Positions 10,123-32,456 of a stretch of DNA of 64,000 bases are shown piece by piece. This DNA is from Thermogladius calderae 1633 (lineage in GTDB: Archaea; Thermoproteota; Thermoprotei_A; Sulfolobales; Desulfurococcaceae), in the NCBI RefSeq assembly GCF_000264495.1, contig NC_017954.1:806001-870000 (forward strand). Reading direction: 5' to 3'. The notes beneath the pieces were generated by a model. That model worked only from the letters and a program-made list of their open reading frames with translations. It did no database searches and had not been told where the DNA came from. Each line of letters starts with the position of its first letter. Position 1 is the first letter of the stretch. The position numbers and the translations under genes were made by a program.

Positions 10123-10172
10123 TTTATATATTACGCTTGTGGAAAATAACTATATCAAGACGGTGGAAGTCT
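10123..10172 (+). promoter_or_regulatory. Promoter and ribosome site of the BMP transporter operon
   Basis: TTTATATA at 10123-10130 predicts a transcription start near 10150-10155. GGTGGA at 10162-10167 is placed six to seven nt before the ATG at 10173 and decides that start over the upstream in-frame codon. Almost the same start context occurs at ppsA (27079-27091). Confidence 0.6.
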
Positions 10173-16295: not shown

Positions 16296-16553
16296 ATGGT
16301 GCTATGTATGGCCAAGTACAAGGTCGAGATCAACCCTAGAGAGAACTGTATATCGGACATGGTCTGTGTGTCGATATGCCCTGACGTGTTCGAGATGAGC
16401 CCTGAGGACAACAAGTCGCAGATAGTGGAGAAGTACAGAGCTGACAAGGCGAACATTGCTGTGGGCATCGTGCCCGAGGACTTGAAGAGCTGTGTTGAGG
16501 ACGCTGCCGCTGCCTGCCCGGTCCAGATCATTCACGTGACGAAGGCCGAGTAA
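16296..16553 (+). CDS. Single [4Fe-4S] ferredoxin with Asp-type ligand motif
   Basis: Small soluble electron carrier. The cluster motif CISDMVCVSICPDVFEM matches the P. furiosus ferredoxin pattern, where an Asp replaces one Cys ligand: C18, D21, C24 and the distal C74 (in ACP) are the expected ligands, while C28 and C66 correspond to the pair that forms a disulfide in the Pyrococcus protein. The 85-residue length is slightly above the usual 66-70 because of an insertion near residues 36-58. ATG 16296 lies about 25 nt after a T-rich box (GTTTTTATTTT), consistent with a leaderless mRNA; ATG 16308 (MAKYKVEINP) is the alternative. It is the likely partner of the hydrogenase encoded 3 kb downstream (inference). 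Confidence 0.92.
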   Translation: MVLCMAKYKVEINPRENCISDMVCVSICPDVFEMSPEDNKSQIVEKYRADKANIAVGIVPEDLKSCVEDAAAACPVQIIHVTKAE

Positions 16554-17846: not shown

Positions 17847-17919
17847 CACTTTAAGACCGCACACGACATCTTAGACTCTGTGACACGGCTGTTCACGGCT
17901 GTTCAGTGGTCGGGTGGTA

Positions 17920-19431
17920 ATGCCTATCAGAGTCCTCATCTCTAACAGGGGCGAGATCGCGATAAGGGTTGCGAGGAGCGTCAGCGAACTGGGCTATACT
18001 CCACTAGGTGTCTACACGTCTGTGGACAAGAACAGCCTACACAGGAGGTTTGTGATCGAGGACTCGGAGGTCTCCAGCTACTTGGACATGGACGACATCA
18101 TTGAGGCAGCCATCCAGCTGGGCGCAGACGCAGTCCACCCCGGCTACGGGTTCTTGAGCGAGAACAGCGAGTTTGCCAGGAGAGTGATCGCCAAGGGGCT
18201 CGTATGGATTGGCCCCCGCCCCGAAGTCATCGACAGGGCTGGGGACAAGTTGGGGTTGAAGGAGATAGTTCTCAAACTAGGACTGCCCACTCTCCCCTAC
18301 CAGAGAGTCGAAGACCCCGAGGACGTCCTGGAGTTCGCGAGGGATTATGGATACCCGGTACTGCTGAAGGCGGCAGGCGGCGGAGGAGGTATCGGCATGA
18401 GGGTGGTACGTAGCGAGAGGGAGGCTGAGTCAAAGGTCTCGGAGTCCGTCATGGAGGCCGAGAGAGCTTTCAAGGACCGCAGGATCTACGTTGAGCCTTT
18501 CATCGAGATGGGTAAGCACATAGAGGTACAGATAATAGGCGACGGCGACAACGTTGTCCACCTGTACGAGAGGGAGTGCTCGGTCCAGTTCAGGTACCAG
18601 AAGATCGTTGAAGAGGCACCCTCACCCTCTATAACACCGGAGACTAGAAGGGCGCTGACCGATGTAGCTGTAGAGCTCATGAAGAGCATGAGGTACGACA
18701 ACGCGGGGACGGTGGAGTTCATATACGACGTTAAGACAGGTAAGTTCTACGTCATGGAGGTGAACGCTCGGATCCAGGTCGAGCACCCTGTTACCGAGAT
18801 GATCACGGGTATAGACATTGTGAAGAGGCAGATTAAAGTAGCGTTCGAGGGCTCACTAGACCTCAGACAGAACGAAGTGGCTTACAGAGGGCACGCGATC
18901 GAGGCGAGGATAGAGGCGCAGAACCCCCTCGACCTTTCTCCTTCGACAGGCTACATTACACGCTACATAGAGCCAGCGGGCCCGGGCGTGCGGGTCGACT
19001 CGGGTGTAACGGCTGGGTCCTACGTCCCCATAGACTATAACCCGCTTATCTCGAAGGTCATCGCTTACGGCAGAGACAGAAACGAAGCAGTCTCGAGGCT
19101 CTTGAGGTCGTTGAACGAGTACGTGGTCGAGGGGATACAGACAAACATACCGTTCGTGAAGGCCATCATCAACTCCCCTAGTTTCAGGGACGCCACGTAC
19201 ACGACCACCTACGTTGAGCAGAGTCTCGGGGACCTCTTCAAGCAAGTGGAGAAAGAGGTAGCGACCCAAGCCCTAGCGACGGCTGTAGTGGCAGTCGTCA
19301 AACCAGAGTTCAGCAAGACGTTAAAGGGCAAGCTAGTTAAGGAGAAACTCCCCGAAAGCCGGGTGGAGTCGATCAAGAGGAGGGCCTGGACGTACTGGAC
19401 CCTCACGAGGAGCAGGCTTAGGAGAAAGTAG
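17920..19431 (+). CDS. Biotin carboxylase subunit of an acyl-CoA/pyruvate carboxylase
   Basis: ATP-dependent carboxylation of the biotin on the carrier protein. The 503-residue product has the N-terminal domain (RVLISNRGEIAIRVARS), an ATP-grasp domain with the glycine loop KAAGGGGGIGMRVV (about 147-160), and the catalytic FEYNxR-type motif as EVNARIQVEHPVTE (about 285-298). About 40 residues follow the usual BC C-terminal domain. ATG 17920 is chosen over GTG 17914 because GGGTGG lies directly before it. A carrier-protein gene begins at 63611, about 44 kb away; the carboxyltransferase is not in the window, so the acceptor (pyruvate, acetyl-CoA or propionyl-CoA) cannot be decided. Confidence 0.9.
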   Translation: MPIRVLISNRGEIAIRVARSVSELGYTPLGVYTSVDKNSLHRRFVIEDSEVSSYLDMDDIIEAAIQLGADAVHPGYGFLSENSEFARRVIAKGLVWIGPRPEVIDRAGDKLGLKEIVLKLGLPTLPYQRVEDPEDVLEFARDYGYPVLLKAAGGGGGIGMRVVRSEREAESKVSESVMEAERAFKDRRIYVEPFIEMGKHIEVQIIGDGDNVVHLYERECSVQFRYQKIVEEAPSPSITPETRRALTDVAVELMKSMRYDNAGTVEFIYDVKTGKFYVMEVNARIQVEHPVTEMITGIDIVKRQIKVAFEGSLDLRQNEVAYRGHAIEARIEAQNPLDLSPSTGYITRYIEPAGPGVRVDSGVTAGSYVPIDYNPLISKVIAYGRDRNEAVSRLLRSLNEYVVEGIQTNIPFVKAIINSPSFRDATYTTTYVEQSLGDLFKQVEKEVATQALATAVVAVVKPEFSKTLKGKLVKEKLPESRVESIKRRAWTYWTLTRSRLRRK

Positions 19432-19541: not shown

Positions 19542-19580
19542 ATGGAGTACATAACTAGTTTTTACACGGAGGCGCTTTAC

Positions 19581-19997
19581 ATGAGCTACTTCAGGAAGAA
19601 GAGTATTTGGGTATACCACTTCAACTCCGGCGGTTGCAACGGCTGCGATATCGAGTTCGTAGACGCCCTCACCCCTAAGTACGACGTGGAGAGGCTCGGG
19701 GTTCAGCTCGTGTCGAGCCCCAGGCACGCCGACGTCCTCGTAGTAACAGGCCCTATAACTACGATGGCCGCTAGAGCTCTGAGGAACATCTACGAGCAAA
19801 TACCCGAGCCAAAGAAGGTAATCGCTTTAGGGACGTGCGCTTGCACAGGCGGCATCTTCGCTGGGGGCTACAACGTGATCGGGGGTGCAGACAAGGTCAT
19901 ACCCGTCGACGTAAAGATACCGGGTTGCCCCGCGCACCCGGGCGTGTTCCTGAAAGCTCTTGCTAGGCTCGCAGGTGTTGAGCGGGATGGGGGGTAA
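19581..19997 (+). CDS. Hydrogenase small subunit, NuoB/MbhJ-like
   Basis: Small subunit carrying the [4Fe-4S] cluster next to the active site, on the cytoplasmic arm of the complex. All four family cysteines are visible: CNGCDIE near the N-terminus, GTCACTGG in the middle and PGCPAHP near the end. I use ATG 19581 (MSYFRKKSIWVYH) because of the GGAGGCG site seven nt before; ATG 19542 would add 13 residues. With 138 residues it is a compact NuoB-like subunit. It is the first gene of the eight-gene operon, and its end overlaps the next gene by 11 bp. Confidence 0.9.
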   Translation: MSYFRKKSIWVYHFNSGGCNGCDIEFVDALTPKYDVERLGVQLVSSPRHADVLVVTGPITTMAARALRNIYEQIPEPKKVIALGTCACTGGIFAGGYNVIGGADKVIPVDVKIPGCPAHPGVFLKALARLAGVERDGG

Positions 19998-21603
19998 GCT
20001 AATCCAGGAGAAGACCAAGGTCTCGCGTGACGCCCTCCTGGACAGCATAAGGCTCTTCATGGAGCAGGGGTTCAGCAACATCGTGGCTATAACAGGTGTG
20101 GACCGGAAGGACAACATCGAGTTGATATACCACTTGGGCGACGAGCATGGGGGTATGGTACACCTATCCGTGCAACTCCCCAAGGGAGACCCCGTCGTAG
20201 ACGACATATCCAGTCTCAAACCTGGTGCTAAGATTCTGGAGAGGGAGGTACACGACCTTTTCGGTGTAGAGTTTTGGGGCTTCGACGAGCTCGACAAGAA
20301 GAGGCTCCTCCTACCCGAGTGTTACCCGGAGAAAGCCTCGCCCCCGCTTTTGAAGGACGTGGACTCCGATACCTTCAAGAAGTACATAGGGGACCCGATG
20401 GCCTGCGCTTACGAGGCGCTGACCCTCAGCGCCCCGTTGTCGCCCGAGAGCGCTCTAGTCCCTATAGGCCCATACCACCCTGCGTTGAAGGAGCCCGAGT
20501 TCTTTAGTCTCGTCGTGGAGGGGGAGAGGATCAAAAAGGCTTTTGTAAGAATAGGCTTCGTCCACAGGGGCATCGAGAAGCTCGCGGAGTCCAGGACTTA
20601 CATTAAGGACATATTCCTGTTTGAGAGAGTGTGTGGTATCTGCAGTACTCACCACGCCTGGACCTTTGTCGAGGCCGTGGAGAAGCTCCTGAACGTGGAT
20701 CCGCCGCCAAGAGCGCAGTACTTGAGGACTCTAATAGCGGAGCTCGAGAGGATACACTCCCACTCCCTTTGGCTCGGTCTGATCGGTTACTGGATAGGCT
20801 TCGAGTCCATGTTCATGTGGGTCTGGGGGCTCAGAGAGACGGTAATGGACCTGTTCGAGGAGCTCACTGGTAACAGGGTTCACAAGTCCTTCATAACGAT
20901 CGGTGGTGTTAGGATGGACATAAGCGACGAGAAAGTAAAGAAGGCCGCTGCGAAAGTCTCGGAGTTTGAGAAACAGATCGACAGCGTTATGGAGACGGTG
21001 ATGTCCTCAGACCTGTTCATTGAGAGGTCTAAGGGGATAGCTAAGTACACGCTCGAGGAGGCGAGGGCGTTCTCTGCCGTCGGCCCTGTGAGAAGGGCTG
21101 CGGGCGACCCCTACGACATTAGGAGGATAGAGCCATACGGTGCTTACGGCGAGCTAGACTTCGAGGTGAGGACCACTAAGACCGGAGACGTGTACAACCT
21201 CGTCCTCCTCAGGCTCGGCGAGATAAAGGAGTCAGCCAGGATCATCAGACAGATCGCCGAGAAAATACCCTCGGGTAACCCAGTGCCGCCGAAGCCGTTC
21301 CTCGGCGTCGTCAAGGAGGGGGAGGCGTACGCTAGGACAGAGGCCCCTAGAGGGGAGCTCTTCTACTACGTGAACTCCAACAATACCGCGTACCCGTACA
21401 GGGTTAAAGTGAGAACGCCAACCCTGCTGAACATCCAGTTGGCGGCACACCTTCTCGAGGGTGCCACGCTATCCGACTTCCCGGTGATAGTCACCAGTAT
21501 AGACCCGTGCTTCAGCTGCATGGACCGCGTCCTCGTCTACGACGAGAGAGCTGGTTGTGCCAAGATAATATCGGCCGAGGAGATCGGCCGGAAGCGGATG
21601 TGA
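19987..21603 (+). CDS. Fused NuoC-NuoD-type [NiFe]-hydrogenase large subunit (HycE-like)
   Basis: Catalytic subunit. Residues 1 to about 110 are NuoC-like (EREVHDLFGVEFWGF); the rest is NuoD/large-subunit-like. Both nickel-binding pairs are intact: RVCGICSTHHAW (C216/C219) and DPCFSCMDR (C508/C511), which are lost in true complex I, so hydrogenase activity is predicted. A 24-residue tail follows R514, the position after which HycE-type precursors are cleaved by a maturation protease, so processing is likely. No hyp or protease gene lies in the window. ATG 19987 overlaps the small-subunit gene and is preferred to the in-frame upstream codons. C+D fusion is known in formate-hydrogenlyase enzymes, but no formate dehydrogenase is nearby. 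Confidence 0.93.
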   Translation: MGGKLIQEKTKVSRDALLDSIRLFMEQGFSNIVAITGVDRKDNIELIYHLGDEHGGMVHLSVQLPKGDPVVDDISSLKPGAKILEREVHDLFGVEFWGFDELDKKRLLLPECYPEKASPPLLKDVDSDTFKKYIGDPMACAYEALTLSAPLSPESALVPIGPYHPALKEPEFFSLVVEGERIKKAFVRIGFVHRGIEKLAESRTYIKDIFLFERVCGICSTHHAWTFVEAVEKLLNVDPPPRAQYLRTLIAELERIHSHSLWLGLIGYWIGFESMFMWVWGLRETVMDLFEELTGNRVHKSFITIGGVRMDISDEKVKKAAAKVSEFEKQIDSVMETVMSSDLFIERSKGIAKYTLEEARAFSAVGPVRRAAGDPYDIRRIEPYGAYGELDFEVRTTKTGDVYNLVLLRLGEIKESARIIRQIAEKIPSGNPVPPKPFLGVVKEGEAYARTEAPRGELFYYVNSNNTAYPYRVKVRTPTLLNIQLAAHLLEGATLSDFPVIVTSIDPCFSCMDRVLVYDERAGCAKIISAEEIGRKRM

Positions 21604-21610
21604 GCGACTC

Positions 21611-22312
21611 ATGGTGTCCATGAGAGACCGCCTCCGCTTGTTCGCCCTTACGCTGAGGAACGCCGTCTCGAGACCCATAACAGTCGACATTTCGAGGGCT
21701 GTCGAAAGGGAGGTCTTGCGAGGCTACCCGAAGGTTAACCCGGAGAAGTGTATTGGTTGCTCGCTTTGCGCTAGGTCGTGTCCCTCGGACGCCATAACAA
21801 TGAGAGTCGTGGGCAAGCAGGTACTCGGCGGTAAGCAGGTTGACAAGAAGATCCCCTTCTTCAACTACTACAAGTGTATATACTGTGGTTTGTGCTCGAA
21901 CGTCTGCCCAGTCAAGGCCATCGACATGGTCAAGGGTACGCCGCTAGACGCTCTAGAGCAAGCTCCTTCCCTAATATCTGCTTCGTTGGTATTCGGGCAC
22001 GAACTGAAGATACTCGCGGCCTATGTCTCTATTTTAGTAGCACTAACAGCCATCTACCTGCTCTCGAGAGCAGTCTCGGCGCGGGGACGCCACCAGCCGG
22101 TAGCCTACGAGCCGTTCGCTGGGGGAGGCACGTACAATGGTAGGTGGGAGAAGTACTACATGCCGAGTCTACTAAGGTTTGTGCTGATCTTCCTCTTGAT
22201 CGAAATAGTCGTATTCGCTGCGCTCGTATACGAGACACCGGTAGTCCTCTTCTTGTCAGTAGTCCTATTCGTGGTAGCGCTCGTAATGGAGTTGAAGGGT
22301 GGTTTCGAGTGA
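21611..22312 (+). CDS. NuoI-like diferredoxin fused to a NuoA-like membrane domain
   Basis: Residues 1 to about 115 form a NuoI/HycF-type 2[4Fe-4S] protein: CIGCSLCARSC and CIYCGLCSNVC are two complete CX2CX2CX3C motifs. The remaining 120 residues contain three hydrophobic helices with a loop reading AYEPFAGGGTYNGRW after the first and RFVLIFLLIEIVVFAAL in the second, the layout of NuoA (YECG-type loop, then an acidic residue in the next helix). The frame is continuous with no stop. I therefore call an I-A fusion that would tether the electron-input ferredoxin domain to the membrane. The NuoA likeness is my reading by eye. NuoH starts in a GTGA overlap. Confidence 0.83.
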   Translation: MVSMRDRLRLFALTLRNAVSRPITVDISRAVEREVLRGYPKVNPEKCIGCSLCARSCPSDAITMRVVGKQVLGGKQVDKKIPFFNYYKCIYCGLCSNVCPVKAIDMVKGTPLDALEQAPSLISASLVFGHELKILAAYVSILVALTAIYLLSRAVSARGRHQPVAYEPFAGGGTYNGRWEKYYMPSLLRFVLIFLLIEIVVFAALVYETPVVLFLSVVLFVVALVMELKGGFE

Positions 22313-23271
22313 TAGACGTGCTGTTCTATGCTCTCGTATTCCCTGGGCTCGCCTTTACGGTCCTGCTAGCCTTCTGGTTTGAGTACGTCGAGAGAAAACT
22401 CACGGCCCGTATACAGAAGAGGGTCGGGCCGCTCTACACGGGCTTTAAGGGGACACTACAACCGGTAGCCGACTTCGTGAAGCTTTTGCTGAAGGAAGAG
22501 CTGGTCCCCCGTACGACGGACAGGCTACTCTACGTCGCGTCCCCTATAGTAGCGTGCTCCATCCCTATACTCGGTATGACTATTTTGCCTATAACCGACC
22601 CGCGCTCACTACTCGGTTTCCGAGAAGACGTCTACTTCTTGTTGTTCCTGTTCATACTCGAGTCTTTTGCCGTAGTGTTGATGGGGATCGCCGTGTTGAC
22701 GCCCTACACGGTCATTGGCGTCGGGAGGCACATTCTACAGTACACAATGTACGAGGGAGTGTTCATGCTCGCAGTGGCGTCGGTGGCCGTACAGACTAGG
22801 TCGGTTGGCATCGACCAGGTCATCGAATACCAGGAGCTCCACGGCCCAATACTCCTATACCAGCCCCTGGGCTTCGTAGTGGCTGTGATAGCCCTGCTAG
22901 CGAAACTTGAGAAGAGGCCTTTCGACCTACCCCACGCTAAACAGGAGATCGTGACGGGGTGGATGACAGAGTACTCGGGCGCTAGCCTCGCACTGGTCAG
23001 GCTGTACTCCTACCTTAGCATGGTCTGGAGCTCCTCGATCATCGCGGACATGTACCTCGGAGGCCCGGGCTGGCCTCTGGGGGTCGGCGGTTGGCAGGGC
23101 TTTCTCTTGTTCTTCCTAAAGTTGAACGTTGTACTCGTGCTCCTCACCGTGGTCAGCGCGTCCACTGGGAGGATTAGAGTCGTAGGATTGGCCAGGAGGT
23201 TCTGGGGCTTCCTATACCCGCTAGCTGTTGTCCAGTTCGTCTTAGCTACCGTAATGAGGTATGCCTTATGA
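22309..23271 (+). CDS. NuoH-like membrane subunit (MbhM/HycD type)
   Basis: Membrane subunit linking the redox arm to the ion-translocating arm. The 320 residues have about eight helices and the family motifs RVGPLYTGFKGTLQPVADF with KLLLKEE close behind, and EKRPFDLPHAKQEIVTGW followed by EYSG, which forms the quinone-site-like cavity in complex I. GTG 22309 overlaps the upstream stop (GTGA) and has GGGTGG before it; longer N-terminal readings run back through the upstream gene in another frame and are not credible. Confidence 0.92.
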   Translation: MIDVLFYALVFPGLAFTVLLAFWFEYVERKLTARIQKRVGPLYTGFKGTLQPVADFVKLLLKEELVPRTTDRLLYVASPIVACSIPILGMTILPITDPRSLLGFREDVYFLLFLFILESFAVVLMGIAVLTPYTVIGVGRHILQYTMYEGVFMLAVASVAVQTRSVGIDQVIEYQELHGPILLYQPLGFVVAVIALLAKLEKRPFDLPHAKQEIVTGWMTEYSGASLALVRLYSYLSMVWSSSIIADMYLGGPGWPLGVGGWQGFLLFFLKLNVVLVLLTVVSASTGRIRVVGLARRFWGFLYPLAVVQFVLATVMRYAL

Positions 23272-23702
23272 CACCCGTCCTCTTTGCTCTCGTAGGCCTG
23301 GTACTCGTCTTTTGGAGCCTGCTCGCCAGAAGGCCTCAATTCTCGATCGTTCTCATGGCAGCGGCCAGTGTCTTCGTAGGCCTGTCCGTGTCCGAGCTAG
23401 TGGGCCACGTGGGCGGACTCATCATAGCGTCGCTATACGTAAGCGTGCTCATCGTGTTACTAATGGTCTGGTTCATGGTCTCGACCCCGGAGACCCCGAA
23501 GACCGACGTATACTCGGTTCTAGCAGCTGTCTTACTGGTGTTGACTCTCGTAGCTGCTACACTCGTCGTTTGGTTCGTAGAGCCGGAGATCAGCCCGAGG
23601 CCAATCGCGAGAGGGGTCAGCTGGACAGACTACGTGCTTTTAACTGTTTTAGTCGTAGTCGCGCTGACGGGCGGACTATGGTTCGTGGAGGAGGCTGATT
23701 AA
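23268..23702 (+). CDS. NuoJ-like membrane subunit
   Basis: Five hydrophobic helices in 144 residues. The third helix region, VGHVGGLIIASLYVSVLIVLLMVWFM, corresponds to the NuoJ helix that carries a pi-bulge in complex I. ATG 23268 overlaps the nuoH-like stop by 4 bp. Sequence conservation in J subunits is low, so the call leans on position (H-J-K-L order as in nuo/fpo operons), size and topology. Confidence 0.8.
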   Translation: MTPVLFALVGLVLVFWSLLARRPQFSIVLMAAASVFVGLSVSELVGHVGGLIIASLYVSVLIVLLMVWFMVSTPETPKTDVYSVLAAVLLVLTLVAATLVVWFVEPEISPRPIARGVSWTDYVLLTVLVVVALTGGLWFVEEAD

Positions 23703-23704
23703 CG

Positions 23705-23989
23705 GTGTTCGACGCTCTCACCTTGATCTCCCTCTCCATGGTTCTAGTGGGCCTGGCGGCGGTGGCCTCTACAAGGAACGTCGTCAAGGTTATACTAGGA
23801 CTGCAGGCAATGTCTCTCGGAGGTCTCTTACTGCTGTCGTACGCGTTCTCAGAGTCGGGCCTCTCGGCGAGGGACATCGTACTACTCCTCAGCGTTGTAA
23901 CAGCCGTGGTGGAGGTCTCCACCGTGACAGCCGTCCTCCTCTACTGGTTTAGGCTTAGGACTCTAGACACTAGGGCTGCCGGGGGCTGA
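23705..23989 (+). CDS. NuoK-like membrane subunit
   Basis: The 94-residue product with three helices fits NuoK/MnhC size. The second and third helices carry acidic residues (FSESGLSARDIVLL, and VVEVSTVTAVLLYW), in line with the buried Glu residues that relay protons in NuoK. GTG 23705 starts 2 nt after the J-like stop. It lies between J-like and L-like genes in classical complex I order. Confidence 0.85.
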   Translation: MFDALTLISLSMVLVGLAAVASTRNVVKVILGLQAMSLGGLLLLSYAFSESGLSARDIVLLLSVVTAVVEVSTVTAVLLYWFRLRTLDTRAAGG

Positions 23990-23992
23990 GAG

Positions 23993-25666
23993 ATGTACGC
24001 AAGCCTCACAATACTGACCCTAGCCACTGGTATAATGCTGGTCCTGCTACTCCACAAATGGAGGAGAGCTGTAGAGCTGGTGAGCGTGTCCGCAACGGGT
24101 TTAGCGCTGTTGTTCTCGCTCCTCTACTCCATTACAGGTGATGGTGGGGGCCTTCTAGGTCTGGGCTTTTTCGCGGACGGGCTGAGTAGGCTGTACACTG
24201 TTACCCTGAACTTCCTAGGCCTCCTGATCTTGACGTACAGCGTTGGATACATGTCGGACGAGGAGGAGTACACGAGGTACTACACCCTCATGTTACTCTT
24301 CATAGCTTCCATGAACCTCCTATTGCTTACGACAAACATAGTGGTCCTATACGTCTCCTGGGAACTGGTGGGTGTGTGTAGCGCCCTCTTGATCGCCTAT
24401 TACTGGTGGAACCCCAGGGCGAGGAGCGCTGGTGTCAAGGCTTTTGTGGTGACCAGGATAGGCGACATGGGGCTGATAGCCTTCGTGTCCACGGTAGCCC
24501 TGAAGCTCGGTTCCTTCGCTATACCAGACATCATATCCCACTACTCGCAAAGCCCTATCGAAGCCTATTCTGCATCCCTACTCCTACTGCTCGCGGCAGT
24601 CGGCAAGTCAGCGCAGTTCCCCCTGCACATATGGCTACCCGACGCGATGGAGGGGCCTACGCCCGTGAGCGCGTTACTCCACTCGGCTACGATGGTCAAG
24701 GCCGGTGTCTACTTGGTTTCGAGGTTCTACCCTCTCTTCGCCTACAGTGGAGTGGTCCTCGAGCTAATGGTCGCGCTGTCAGTGGTCACAATAATACTGT
24801 CAGGCTTAGCCGCACTGGCCTCCGTGGACATAAAGCGAGTGCTTGCGTATAGTACAATAAACAACATCGGGCTTATGTTCCTGGCCCTGAGCGTGGGCAA
24901 CTGGCTTATGGCGCAGCTGCACTTCCTATCCCACGCACTCTTCAAATCACTACTGTTCCTGTCGTCCGGGACGGTGACTAAGGGTGCGAAGACCAGGAGT
25001 ATCGACGAGCTCGGCGGTATGTGGTCGGCTGGCTACGCGAGGAGCGGCTTTGGCTTCCTCGTAGGAGCCCTAAGCACGGCCGGGGTACCGCCTCTACCCG
25101 GGTTCTTCACGAAGGCGGGCATACTCTTGTCATTCCTCGAGAAGTACCACGGGTGGACGGGCCTCTTCTTCGTCTTATTGGTGTCGCTCATATCGCCCCT
25201 CTACATCTTCAGGGCTTTCTTCAGGGTGTACACTGGGAAAACCCAAAGGGTGCCCGAGGTCTACGAGCCCGCCCCAATGGCTGTGACCGTGATGGCCCTC
25301 ACGGCCGCGAACCTTGCCGGCCCTATTATCATGTGGGACGTGTACCGCGTTCTAAACCGCACCGGCCCTCACTTGGTCGTGATCGACCCCTTCGACCTGT
25401 CGGCCCTAGCATTGGGCGTAATACTAGCATACTCGGTCTGGTACTCGGGCAGACTGGGCACGCTAAGGGTTGGGCTGCGGGGTCTGTCTGCTATTGCCAG
25501 AGAGGGCTTTTACCTCGACGCCCTTCTGGTCACGGCTAGTTCTTACTCGGCGAGGTTCCTGGTAGGAGCGGTAGCATACCTTAAACGGACTAAGCCGCCT
25601 GTCTTGACTCTGTGGATCATGGGGTTCCTACTGGTGGCCCTCATGGTTCTACTGGGCGTTTACTAG
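23993..25666 (+). CDS. NuoL-like antiporter-type subunit
   Basis: Ion-pumping subunit homologous to Mrp antiporters. The 557 residues carry about 14-16 helices with intact channel residues: SWELVGVCSALLI (helix 5 Glu), AVGKSAQFPLHIWLPDAMEG (helix 7 Lys, His) and HALFKSLLFLSSG (helix 8 Lys). The C-terminal part includes EGFYLDALL and a last hydrophobic helix, suggesting a shortened version of the lateral helix that in NuoL runs along the membrane arm. ATG 23993 is 3 nt after the K-like stop. Whether protons or Na+ are moved cannot be told. Confidence 0.92.
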   Translation: MYASLTILTLATGIMLVLLLHKWRRAVELVSVSATGLALLFSLLYSITGDGGGLLGLGFFADGLSRLYTVTLNFLGLLILTYSVGYMSDEEEYTRYYTLMLLFIASMNLLLLTTNIVVLYVSWELVGVCSALLIAYYWWNPRARSAGVKAFVVTRIGDMGLIAFVSTVALKLGSFAIPDIISHYSQSPIEAYSASLLLLLAAVGKSAQFPLHIWLPDAMEGPTPVSALLHSATMVKAGVYLVSRFYPLFAYSGVVLELMVALSVVTIILSGLAALASVDIKRVLAYSTINNIGLMFLALSVGNWLMAQLHFLSHALFKSLLFLSSGTVTKGAKTRSIDELGGMWSAGYARSGFGFLVGALSTAGVPPLPGFFTKAGILLSFLEKYHGWTGLFFVLLVSLISPLYIFRAFFRVYTGKTQRVPEVYEPAPMAVTVMALTAANLAGPIIMWDVYRVLNRTGPHLVVIDPFDLSALALGVILAYSVWYSGRLGTLRVGLRGLSAIAREGFYLDALLVTASSYSARFLVGAVAYLKRTKPPVLTLWIMGFLLVALMVLLGVY

Positions 25667-26968
25667 GTGGTCGCCTTGTACGCCGAGTACGTGTCCCTAG
25701 CAGGCGTCGTCGCCGTATCCCTCACACAAATCGCCCCGAGGAGGGTCAGGGACTGGGCGGCCCTCGTTATAGGAGCGGCTACTCTGGCGTCCCTACTGTA
25801 CTTGTCTGTCCTCGAGAGGTCGCTCGCGGGGCTAGTGGGCCTAACAGTCTCAATAGTGGGGATTGCGTCCTTAGTCTCGGCCTTCGGCCTGCTGGACGCG
25901 GGTAGGAGCGTGTTCACTCTACTGGTATTGGCGGCGTGCTCGTCCTCGACGATACTCGCGTACGCGACCGACGCCGTGGTCGTCTTTACCGCGTGGGAGA
26001 TCCTCAGCCTATCTGTCCTGTTCACCGCGGGCTACACGAAGTCGGAGGAGAGTGCGAGTGCGGTAATCAAGTACTTGGTCACGTGCTCAGCCGGCTCGCT
26101 ACTGCTCCTGACAGGCTTTGCGCTCGCGTTTGCCGAGACAGGCACCACAAGCCTGGCCGGCCTAGCGGGGGCTTCGCCTCTAGCCAAACTACTCGTGCTC
26201 GTCGGTGTCGGTGTAGAGGCCTCTCTGTTCCCTCTCGGATTCTGGCTACCGGACGTCTACGCGGCCGCCCCCGAGCCTGGGGTAGCAGTGATATCGAGTG
26301 CTGCCACTGGTGTCGCCAGTATACTGCTCTATAGGACGGTCCTCGCCGACCCCTTAGTAGGCAGGGTCGTAGCGATACTGGCGTCCCTCGGTGTGGTAGT
26401 CAGCGTAGCACACATGTACAAGGAGAGCGACCTTAGGAGAGTCTTGGCCTACTCTAGCATGTTCTCCTCAAACGCCATGCTCCTCGCGTTCTCGTCGAGT
26501 AACAGCCTCGCTATCTCTATGGCCCTCGTTTACTACCTGGCACACTCGCTATCCAAGACGTCCGCCTTCATACTGGCGGGGGGTCTACGTAGAGACTACG
26601 GTTACTCCAGCGTGCAGGACTTGGTGGGTGTGGCCTCTGGTTGGGGGGTGATGAAGCTTAACCTAGCGCTCTCGTTGTTGGGAATACTCGGGGTGCCCCC
26701 ATTCGTGTCCTTCTGGGGGGACTTCTACATAGCAGTCGGTCTGTTGGAGGCCGTCCCCGAACTAGGCGTAGTGTTTATGCTGGCGTTGATAGCGTTGATA
26801 CCAGTAATACTGAACGTGTTGTTTACGCTGGTATCAGGGACTGGTAGGTCCCAACGCGTCTCCTCCACCCCCGTCTACCTAGCGGTCTCCACGGCGTTGA
26901 ACGTACTGGCCATAGCCCTATTCCCATGGTACTCCTTGCTCCTGGCTTACGCGGTGACCGGTCGGTAG
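25667..26968 (+). CDS. NuoM/NuoN-like antiporter-type subunit with altered helix-7 motif
   Basis: Second antiporter-like subunit; 433 residues, about 12-13 helices, last gene of the operon. The helix 5 Glu is kept (AWEILSL, E111) and a helix 8 HSLSKTSAF is present, but the normally near-invariant GKxxxxPxHxWLPDA segment reads GVEASLFPLGFWLPDVY, so the central Lys is E184 and the His is G191. This may weaken or alter ion transfer. GTG 25667 directly follows the L-like stop. A T-run at 27010-27015 (TGTTTTTAACTCC) may end the transcript. Confidence 0.88.
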   Translation: MVALYAEYVSLAGVVAVSLTQIAPRRVRDWAALVIGAATLASLLYLSVLERSLAGLVGLTVSIVGIASLVSAFGLLDAGRSVFTLLVLAACSSSTILAYATDAVVVFTAWEILSLSVLFTAGYTKSEESASAVIKYLVTCSAGSLLLLTGFALAFAETGTTSLAGLAGASPLAKLLVLVGVGVEASLFPLGFWLPDVYAAAPEPGVAVISSAATGVASILLYRTVLADPLVGRVVAILASLGVVVSVAHMYKESDLRRVLAYSSMFSSNAMLLAFSSSNSLAISMALVYYLAHSLSKTSAFILAGGLRRDYGYSSVQDLVGVASGWGVMKLNLALSLLGILGVPPFVSFWGDFYIAVGLLEAVPELGVVFMLALIALIPVILNVLFTLVSGTGRSQRVSSTPVYLAVSTALNVLAIALFPWYSLLLAYAVTGR

Positions 26969-29653: not shown

Positions 29654-30985
29654 ATGCCTAAGAGAGTCGTGATTGTAGGCGCTTCCGGTAGGGACTTCCA
29701 CAACTTCAACGTGTACTTCAGGGACAACCCCGAGTACCGTGTAGTGGCATTCCTCCAGACACAGATAAAGGGGCTGAAGACGAGGGTCTACCCTCCAGAG
29801 CTCGCTGGCAGGCTATACCCGAACGGGATACCCGTCCTCGGGATTGGGTACTTAGAGGAGCTCGCCGAGAACCCCGGGTTCGAAGAGGCGGTCTTATCCT
29901 ACAGCGACCTTACGTTCCAAGAGCTAGGCGAGGTAGTCTCCAGAGTCCTCAAGACGGGGGCCAGCTTCAGGATCCTCGGCTTCAAAGACACGATGCTGGA
30001 GAGCATTAAGCCCGTTGTAGCAGTGACGGGCGTGAAGACGGGTGTAGGGAAGAGCAGCGTCTCACGCGAGGTCGCGTTAGAGCTTAAGTCTAGGGGTTTA
30101 AGGGTGGGTGTTGTAAGGCACCCTATGCCGTACAGCGAGGTCTTCTACCCGGTTCAGAAGTTCGAGACGTTCGACGACCTAAGTAAGTACCAGATAACAG
30201 TAGAGGAGAGGGAGGAGTACGAGCACTACCTGAAACTGGGGTTCACGGTCTACGCCGGCGTAGACTACGGGATGATCCTGAGAGAGGTCGAGAAGAGCAG
30301 CGACGTGATCCTATGGGACGGGGGCAACAACGACTTCCCGTTCTACAAGCCAGACCTTTACATCACAGTGGCAGATGCTATGAGGCCGGGTATTGAGACG
30401 TCAGCTTTCCCGGGCATGGTGAACCTCCTTGCCTGCGACAACGTGATCATAAACAAGGCAGACCAGGCGACCAGGCAAGTGCTGGACAGCCTCGTGGAGA
30501 GGGTCAAGGCCCTGAACCCGAGAGCCGAGGTGAGCATAGCCGTAAGCGACGTGTTTATAGAGGAGGGCGAGCCGAAGGGTGTTAGGAGAGTCGTCGTTGT
30601 CGAGGACGCCCCCACTGTAACACACGGCGGTGCCGGTTACGGAGCCGGCTACGTGGCGGCCAAGAAGTACGGGCTCGAGGTAGTCGACCCGCGCCCCTAC
30701 GCGAGGGGCTCCCTGAAGGCGGTGTACGAGGAGTTCAGGAGTATAGGGCCCGTAGTACCCAGTATGGGGTACAACCCTGATCAGTTGAGGGACTTAGAGG
30801 AGACCCTGAACGCGGTGCCGGCTGACGCCGTTTTACTCGCTACGCCCAGCGACCTCACCAAGCTTATTAAGCTGAACAAGCCGGCTCTACACGTGTCCTT
30901 CAGGGTGCGCGTGGTAGAGGGCCCCACTTTCAAGGACATTGTAGACAAGTTCCTGGAGAGGGCCGGTAAAAAATTCATTTTCTAG
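29654..30985 (+). CDS. COG2403-family P-loop protein (cyclic 2,3-diphosphoglycerate synthetase-like)
   Basis: Members of this family are annotated as predicted GTPases or as cyclic 2,3-diphosphoglycerate synthetase-like, an enzyme making a thermoprotective and phosphate-storage solute. The N-terminus VVIVGASGRDFHNFNVYFRDN is the family hallmark; a Walker A loop GVKTGVGKSS lies near residues 135-144, followed by ILWDGGNNDFPFYKPDL and INKADQAT. The 443-residue size fits. ATG 29654 (MPKRVVIVG) is chosen; the in-frame ATG 29624 would add ten odd residues and leave little room for a promoter (GTTTTTTATTC, about 29612-29622). The 3' end overlaps the convergent phosphoesterase gene by 11 bp. Actual product formation is unproven. 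Confidence 0.82.
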   Translation: MPKRVVIVGASGRDFHNFNVYFRDNPEYRVVAFLQTQIKGLKTRVYPPELAGRLYPNGIPVLGIGYLEELAENPGFEEAVLSYSDLTFQELGEVVSRVLKTGASFRILGFKDTMLESIKPVVAVTGVKTGVGKSSVSREVALELKSRGLRVGVVRHPMPYSEVFYPVQKFETFDDLSKYQITVEEREEYEHYLKLGFTVYAGVDYGMILREVEKSSDVILWDGGNNDFPFYKPDLYITVADAMRPGIETSAFPGMVNLLACDNVIINKADQATRQVLDSLVERVKALNPRAEVSIAVSDVFIEEGEPKGVRRVVVVEDAPTVTHGGAGYGAGYVAAKKYGLEVVDPRPYARGSLKAVYEEFRSIGPVVPSMGYNPDQLRDLEETLNAVPADAVLLATPSDLTKLIKLNKPALHVSFRVRVVEGPTFKDIVDKFLERAGKKFIF

Positions 30986-32456
30986 CCCTAGCCCTCCTGA
31001 GGTACAGGTAGGCCAGGGCGAGCACGAACAGTAGGACTACAACTACCGTCACGACATCCCGAGCCACAGTCGCCTCGGGAGCCCCTGTTGTTACCTGCGC
31101 CGTCGTTGTCGTGGTTGTCGTAGTAGAGGTAGCGGCTGGAGATGGTGCCATCGTGGTAGTCGTCGTGGTTGTAGTAGTTGTAAGAGTAGTCGTAGTCGTC
31201 GTGGTCCTCGTAGTGGTGGTCGTCCTCGTAGTGGTCGTGGTCTGCGTGGGCTGTACAACCATAGGTGGCGAGACCGCGGTGACGCCAGACAAGTTTAAGG
31301 CGGAGAGGTCTGCTAACCCTGCTCTGACCTCGACCACAGTCGCCTCGTAGGGCCTGTCGAGGCTCTGCACGTAGACGTAGGCGTTGGTCAGGTTTGTCCT
31401 TATCGCCTTACTCGACTCGTCGTACGTGGCGTAGGACACCGAGTTGGCTGGAGCGAAGCCGACGAGGTAGACGACTGTGCTACCGGCCGTCCAGACCAGC
31501 CTGACAGGCACGTCACTGTAGTTCCCGTACACATCCAGCTTGGTGTTGTTCACAACGAAGCTGACCGAGTCGACTACTCTCACTGTCACGTTGCCCGAGC
31601 CCGGCCCCGCCTTCAACGGTATGTAGCTGTACTCCCCGGTCGGGTAGAGTACTAGGACGACGTAGTTGTGGGTCGACGAGCAGAATGTAGCGTTGGACGA
31701 GGAGCAGCCGTAGAGAGGCGCACCTCCACCGCCCGTCACGAGCCAGAGTGTGCTGGGCGTCGCGTTCTCGGCGTAGCCGTGCCAGTGGCTCTGCAGGACT
31801 ATTCTCGGCGGGGCAGGGAGAGAGGATGAGAAGTTCAGTATCGCGCTGGCCTTGTCTGGCTCCTCGTCCTGCATGTTGTGACCGACGTAGGGGTAGATAG
31901 GCCTGTGGTAGGCCAAAATTAGCGACCTGTTGCCAAGACCGCTCAGCGTCGCGTTGAGCCCGTAATAGAGGTCGCTGAGAGACCCCTCAGCGTTGAGCGA
32001 GGCGATCCTCCACCCGGGTATGTCGTCGAAGACGACGGTCGTGTTCCCCACGTACGCCGCGTAGTAGCTCCAGGAGTCGGGGCCGTAGGCCACGTCGTGG
32101 TTGCCAATGACCGGTATGAAGTTGTCGATTCTAGCCTGCGACAACAGGTTGTAGAACGCCTTGTACTGGTCGAGAGTGCCAAAGGACACGAAGTCGCCTC
32201 CACCGATCACCGCCTGGGGGTATATCCAGCTGATTTCGTTCAGTATGTCCACGAAGACATTTGGGTACACCAGCGAGGAGGGGCCCGAGGTAGACGAGGG
32301 TCTGTTGTCGCCCCACACGACCAGCACGTAGTAGGGTAGGTTCTGCGGGAGAGGTCTAGAAGTGGCCTGCTGGAGGGGCTGCGCTCCCTCGGCGTGTACA
32401 CCCATGGCGGTGGTCAACGTCAGGAGCAGCAATAACGCGGCTATCTCATGCCTCAA
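30975..32456 (-). CDS. Secreted, Thr-stalked, membrane-anchored metallophosphoesterase
   Basis: Surface calcineurin-like phosphohydrolase. Order: signal peptide (about 1-22), catalytic domain with VVWGDNRP, GGGDFV, GNHD and QSHWHGY as the metal-binding motifs, a C-terminal beta-rich region, a Thr-rich stalk (about 405-450, mostly TTT with few other residues), then a membrane helix (about 465-485) and a basic tail. The first motif has DNR where many relatives have DXH. TTG 32456 is the only reasonable start and lies about 35 nt after an A/T box. It shares the stalk/anchor plan with the three surface proteins at 34624, 36873 and 38095. The natural substrate is unknown. Confidence 0.85.
   Translation of the reverse strand: MRHEIAALLLLLTLTTAMGVHAEGAQPLQQATSRPLPQNLPYYVLVVWGDNRPSSTSGPSSLVYPNVFVDILNEISWIYPQAVIGGGDFVSFGTLDQYKAFYNLLSQARIDNFIPVIGNHDVAYGPDSWSYYAAYVGNTTVVFDDIPGWRIASLNAEGSLSDLYYGLNATLSGLGNRSLILAYHRPIYPYVGHNMQDEEPDKASAILNFSSSLPAPPRIVLQSHWHGYAENATPSTLWLVTGGGGAPLYGCSSSNATFCSSTHNYVVLVLYPTGEYSYIPLKAGPGSGNVTVRVVDSVSFVVNNTKLDVYGNYSDVPVRLVWTAGSTVVYLVGFAPANSVSYATYDESSKAIRTNLTNAYVYVQSLDRPYEATVVEVRAGLADLSALNLSGVTAVSPPMVVQPTQTTTTTRTTTTTRTTTTTTTLTTTTTTTTTTMAPSPAATSTTTTTTTTAQVTTGAPEATVARDVVTVVVVLLFVLALAYLYLRRARARK

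Follow-up and report, generated by a model that had tools for sequence, protein, structure and literature searches.

Does a single gene of Thermogladius calderae code for both an electron-entry subunit of the NuoI type and a membrane subunit of the NuoA type? An earlier note on the window (the whole stretch of 64,000 nucleotides analysed here, positions 806001-870000 of a genome that consists of a single contig of 1,356,318 bases) had described a diferredoxin domain that continues in frame into membrane helices. This description holds: the open reading frame runs over 233 codons without a stop, and the matches to Fer4 and NuoI models cover residues 37-108 of its product. The features of the gene (I.A in the following) and of its operon are collected in Table 1.

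The fused gene and its domains

The ferredoxin domain carries two CxxCxxCxxxC motifs with eight cysteines (C47/50/53/57 and C89/92/95/99). It matches the NCBIfam models for NuoI with scores below their curated cut-offs. Its AlphaFold model has a pLDDT of at least 90 over most of the domain, and when this model was submitted to Foldseek, the best matches were I chains of complex I.

The hydropathy profile of residues 118-233 has three hydrophobic segments and no more. The three helices, the YEPFAGGG loop and the acidic second helix of the earlier description are all present, the acid being E198. Residues 109-133, which lead from the linker into helix 1, read GTPLDALEQAPSLISASLVFGHELK. Most of the fusions described below share S/T-P-L/V-D/E at the start of the linker, which is otherwise poorly conserved in length and sequence. 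The 3' end of the gene overlaps the NuoH-like gene by GTGA, with GTG as the start codon of the latter.

Table 1. Features of the operon and of the fused gene (window coordinates). Helix boundaries are from the AlphaFold2 model (AF2), with those from hydropathy in brackets.
Feature	Coordinates	Strand	Evidence
NuoB/MbhJ-like small subunit	19542..19997	+	PF01058
NuoCD-like fused large subunit, NiFe CxxC motifs RVCGIC and DPCFSC	19960..21603	+	PF00346, PF00329, PF00374
Fused NuoI.NuoA-like subunit, 233 aa	21611..22312	+	open frame; homologous fusions, full or near-full, in six Thermofilum genomes
NuoI-type 2[4Fe-4S] ferredoxin domain, residues 37-108	21719..21934	+	Pfam Fer4, NCBIfam NuoI, PDB NuoI chains, Foldseek
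Linker, residues 109-129 (about 20 residues)	21935..21997	+	hydropathy, AF2
Membrane helix 1, residues 130-155 (about 134-152)	21998..22075	+	
Loop 1 motif YEPFAGGG, residues 166-173	22106..22129	+	conservation in 17 A sequences
Membrane helix 2, residues 177-206 (about 188-206), with E198	22139..22228	+	
Membrane helix 3, residues 210-230 (about 210-228)	22238..22300	+	
NuoH/MbhM-like membrane anchor	22309..23271	+	PF00146
NuoJ-like subunit	23268..23702	+	position and match to J of related operons; no Pfam match
NuoK/MrpC-like subunit	23705..23989	+	PF00420
NuoL-like antiporter subunit	23993..25666	+	PF00361, PF00662
NuoN/M-like antiporter subunit	25667..26968	+	PF00361

The operon and its enzyme

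The operon (19542-26968, forward strand) has the order B, CD fusion, I.A, H, J, K, L and an N/M-like gene, and thus unites complex-I-like B, C, D, I and H with antiporter-like subunits. No genes for NuoE, NuoF or NuoG were found in this hydrogenase cluster. The cysteines of both CxxC motifs of CD are invariant among the orthologues. Both nickel-binding pairs together with the PF00374 match identify the enzyme, on sequence grounds, as a group 4 [NiFe] hydrogenase rather than an NADH:quinone oxidoreductase. The earlier naming of the two domains as NuoI and NuoA is supported for the domain types, with the qualification that the enzyme, its CxxC pairs being intact, is not complex I. H2 evolution coupled to ion pumping is the role that this hydrogenase would be expected to have.

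The hydrogenase operon is directly preceded by a gene for what looks by eye like a biotin-carboxylase-like protein (17914-19431, forward strand). Another gene, 3 kb upstream of the operon (16296-16553, forward strand), codes for a small ferredoxin-like protein that could be the electron donor. Further downstream, the reverse strand codes for a surface-type protein (30975-32456) with an N-terminal part that resembles calcineurin by eye, a long threonine-rich stalk and a C-terminal membrane helix. Elsewhere in the genome there are two further complex-I-like clusters, L069 (G000:C1:1203500-1222000) and L070 (G000:C1:922000-940000). One of them is Mbh-like, with a 122-aa gene directly before H that we read as MbhI or MbhI-like; in the other, a CD fusion lies beside pyridine-nucleotide-oxidoreductase-like and ferredoxin-like genes.

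The C-terminal half is related to NuoA and ND3

A direct match of residues 118-233 to the NuoA model PF00507, proposed earlier as a check, was not obtained; the model matched neither the fused protein nor any other place in the T. calderae genome. With phmmer, the C-terminus found only chance-level matches in the PDB, and a search for related loci with the C-terminus alone as query found none. When 229 genomes of the class were searched, weak matches were obtained to proteins of 107-112 aa that carry the motif PYxCGE and whose genes immediately precede H in other hydrogenase operons.

The relationship became apparent in profile comparisons. The C-terminus of the window protein scores 54 against the family of stand-alone A proteins, from which it had been left out, compared to a maximum of 22.6 for 100 segment-preserving shuffles of the same sequence. 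In profile-profile comparison, the fused C-termini match the stand-alone A proteins at 98.6% and archaeal NuoA at 92.7%; against archaeal NuoA, the stand-alone A proteins reach 94.0% and the union of fused and stand-alone sequences reaches 95.2%, while the control subunits J and K stay below 2%. In the alignment of NuoA with the A family, the loop and the acidic residue of helix 2 are in register. The A profile picks out true NuoA places in four other genomes (E-values down to 1.4e-6), and in the PDB it matches nothing but ND3 at E<1 (best E=5.4e-5). All 17 aligned members of the A family have the glycine of the loop and the glutamate of helix 2, and the proline of the motif is invariant or nearly so.

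Profile scores, ND3 matches and invariant residues together argue that the C-terminal domain is a NuoA/ND3 homologue beyond the reach of the Pfam model, in keeping with the NuoA-like character assigned to it earlier, and that it belongs to this wider superfamily. YEPFAGGG would then be the counterpart of YECG in NuoA and of PYxCGE in the hydrogenases. A generic membrane anchor without relationship to NuoA is a very unlikely alternative for these helices. Such an anchor would account for the missing PF00507 match and for the isolated C-terminal model, for which Foldseek found no match to the ND3 fold (a result of little weight, as this model has a pLDDT of 72 and ND3-type helices pack against partners). 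It would not account for profile links of 93-99% with clean controls, for ND3 as the sole PDB match at E<1, for the invariant glycine and glutamate or for the adjoining H gene.

A search of the T. calderae genome with the A profile retrieved a single place, which is the fusion itself, and no A gene fits into the 110 bases before B in the window. Hence, no other gene of the A family supplies the Loop 1 element in this genome.

The same fusion in Thermofilum

Among 40 genomes from the family of T. calderae, no full-length relative of the fused protein was found, and the +1 frame at the junction has three stops (TAG 21945, TAG 21954, TAA 21972). An error was therefore a possibility to be examined. 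When GTDB genomes were scanned with the CD alignment, Thermofilum sp. NZ13 was found to have a CD protein that is 66% identical to that of the window and the same operon order. In this metagenome-assembled genome (locus L112), the in-frame junction of I and A is kept; within loop 1, the frame changes at a run of eight C (10160-10170), and the rest of A is encoded in the new frame. We consider this frame change to be probably an assembly indel.

A search of the family of NZ13 yielded five complete fusions without stops (Thermofilum loci L223-L227). As aligned, they comprise 230-233 aa (open frames of 232-265), with 34-45% identity to the window protein. The operon order B-CD-IA-H-J-K-L-N is identical in all five. 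About 0.5 kb downstream of these operons, after the N gene, there is a second B-C-D(-H) cluster for another complex-I-like enzyme. In a sample of 398 genomes from the phylum, fusions of full length were restricted to these Thermofilum genomes and the window; judged by matching coordinates, the genomes G308, G341, G376, G386, G396 and G401 of this sample are the same as G245, G241, G242, G240, G244 and G229.

The search of related genomes for the same fusion, suggested earlier as a check, yielded five full-length cases and an interrupted sixth. That two adjacent genes were joined by a sequencing or assembly error is hardly credible: one extra base would suffice at a junction with three +1-frame stops, but the in-frame, full-length fusion recurs at the same place in the operon in five independent genomes, and the sixth shares the junction.

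In the open-licence literature that we searched, no fusion of I and A was described, which agrees with the earlier statement that no standard operon encodes the two as one chain. The fusions reported in a survey of complex I join D with C, or D with B and C (PMC12361115).

Origin of the fusion

In most related operons with separate genes, A codes for 109-123 aa and I for 118-143 aa, with A located upstream of B or H. In loci L057-L062 and in L113 (Thermofilaceae archaeon), A is upstream of B and I follows H. On first look, A seemed to be absent from orthologous operons; this view was rejected when the gene was found upstream of B. The closest separate-gene operons have CD proteins that are 50-57% identical to that of the window. 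Another type of group 4 operon (L063-L065, L109-L111) mostly has the order A-H-J-K-L-N-N-B-C-D-I and includes a separate gene for a NuoA-like protein; this protein has the motif YxCGE and falls below the PF00507 cut-off.

A maximum-likelihood tree of CD, built without the fused gene and thus independent of the fusion sequence, places the seven fused rows in one clade (support 99/99), with the separate state outside. The window branches together with the Thermofilum rows, in an order that the tree does not resolve. The simplest reading is that the fusion arose once. The earlier note had counted separate proteins in close relatives against the fusion. Separate genes do exist, but only outside the fused clade, so that they reflect the ancestral arrangement and are no argument against the fusion.

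An ancestral order A-B-CD-H-I-J-K-L-N was probably rearranged once: A was transferred to the 3' end of I and joined to it in frame, and I.A came to lie before H. This architecture would have been kept as Thermofilum diverged and would then have moved, probably horizontally, into the lineage of the window. The absence of the system from the window's own family makes a transfer likely, with the T. calderae lineage as the presumed recipient.

Function and membrane topology of the fused subunit

We consider it probable that I.A, as a single polypeptide, is part of a group 4 [NiFe] hydrogenase that is linked to ferredoxin and pumps ions, and that the fusion originated by a one-time rearrangement and probably reached T. 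calderae by transfer. Electrons from ferredoxin would pass through the two [4Fe-4S] clusters of the NuoI-type domain to B and on to the NiFe site of CD. The NuoA/ND3-like half, made up of helix 1, a cytoplasmic loop and helices 2 and 3, would form the Loop 1 element and is expected to sit between the active-site chamber and the pump modules J, K, L and N. The fusion would set a 1:1 ratio of I to A and would turn assembly of the Fe-S arm and insertion of the Loop 1 element into coupled steps. It may also tether the electron-entry domain at the redox-to-pump junction, a function that the earlier note had proposed and that meets a conflict in topology.

Nqo7/ND3 and MbhI have their N-termini on the outer side (PMC10396290). 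Loop 1 has a net positive charge in four of the five fusions tabulated, and the charges fit the NuoA orientation. With an ND3-type N-terminus outside, the loop facing the active site and the ferredoxin domain inside, the linker would have to cross the membrane. It would do so unlike a normal transmembrane helix: where reported, linker hydropathy is at most about 0.97 (Kyte-Doolittle, 19 residues), compared to 2.1-3.0 for the three helices. In the AF2 model, the linker consists of two short helices of low confidence, and confidence is likewise low for the loop. Either the linker crosses in an unusual manner, with H or another subunit as a shield, or the polypeptide is cleaved or in part initiated internally.

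The latter option, a fused gene with separate working subunits, appears rather improbable. It postulates cleavage in the linker, or an A half that is also started at the internal TTG 21986. The A half could then insert with its N-terminus outside as NuoA does, which would solve the topology conflict; the TTG in the window aligns with the start of the stand-alone A proteins, and the poor conservation of the linker also speaks for this option. This TTG, the one internal candidate, is not preceded by a purine-rich ribosome site, and no start codon common to the fusions is conserved at the start of A; moreover, an internal start would not be expected to require a fused frame in every member of the clade over this divergence. 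The missing ribosome site and the missing common start favour the single chain, and we infer that I.A is present as such in the cell.

More specifically, the conserved single chain may cross the membrane four times by way of a short, non-canonical linker, with movement of Loop 1 mechanically tied to the Fe-S arm; we see the chances for this detailed model as evenly balanced. If it is true, a four-crossing I.A subunit would be unlike any known structure of the complex I superfamily.

Comparison with known systems

Loop 1 (ND3/Nqo7, MbhI, MbsH') counts as a key element for coupling redox chemistry to ion pumping in enzymes of the complex I superfamily, and an interfacial Loop 1 that connects the peripheral arm to the pumps is common to the structures of MBH, MBS and complex I (PMC7684303, PMC11228991). 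It is known as a subunit of its own, in a subunit with a lateral helix and in an antiporter subunit; the electron-entry subunit would be a new host. The fusion poses a sharp topology question and may be viewed as a natural experiment on which parts tolerate covalent joining without stopping the pump. In addition, genes of the NuoA type, absent from such archaeal hydrogenase operons according to Pfam, are present in them, a point of relevance to the acquisition of NuoA by complex I.

Complex I has homologues of both domains in NuoI and NuoA (Nqo9 and Nqo7; ND3), which are two proteins rather than one chain, and the window enzyme differs in having kept the NiFe ligands. The group 4 operons L057-L062, L113, L063-L065 and L109-L111 code for the same core subunit types, with A and I as separate genes. 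The Mbh enzyme of Pyrococcus (MbhN, MbhI) is likewise a group 4 NiFe hydrogenase, and MbhI has a TM1-Loop 1-TM2 element equivalent to ND3 (PMC10396290, PMC7684303, PMC11228991). The differences are that MbhI is a separate subunit with a lateral helix and that the window enzyme has two antiporter subunits of the NuoL/N type. In the sulfane sulfur reductase MBS, the Loop 1 element is also fused to another subunit (MbsH' TMH15-16; PMC7684303). There it forms the C-terminus of an antiporter-like subunit, and in the window that of the ferredoxin subunit.
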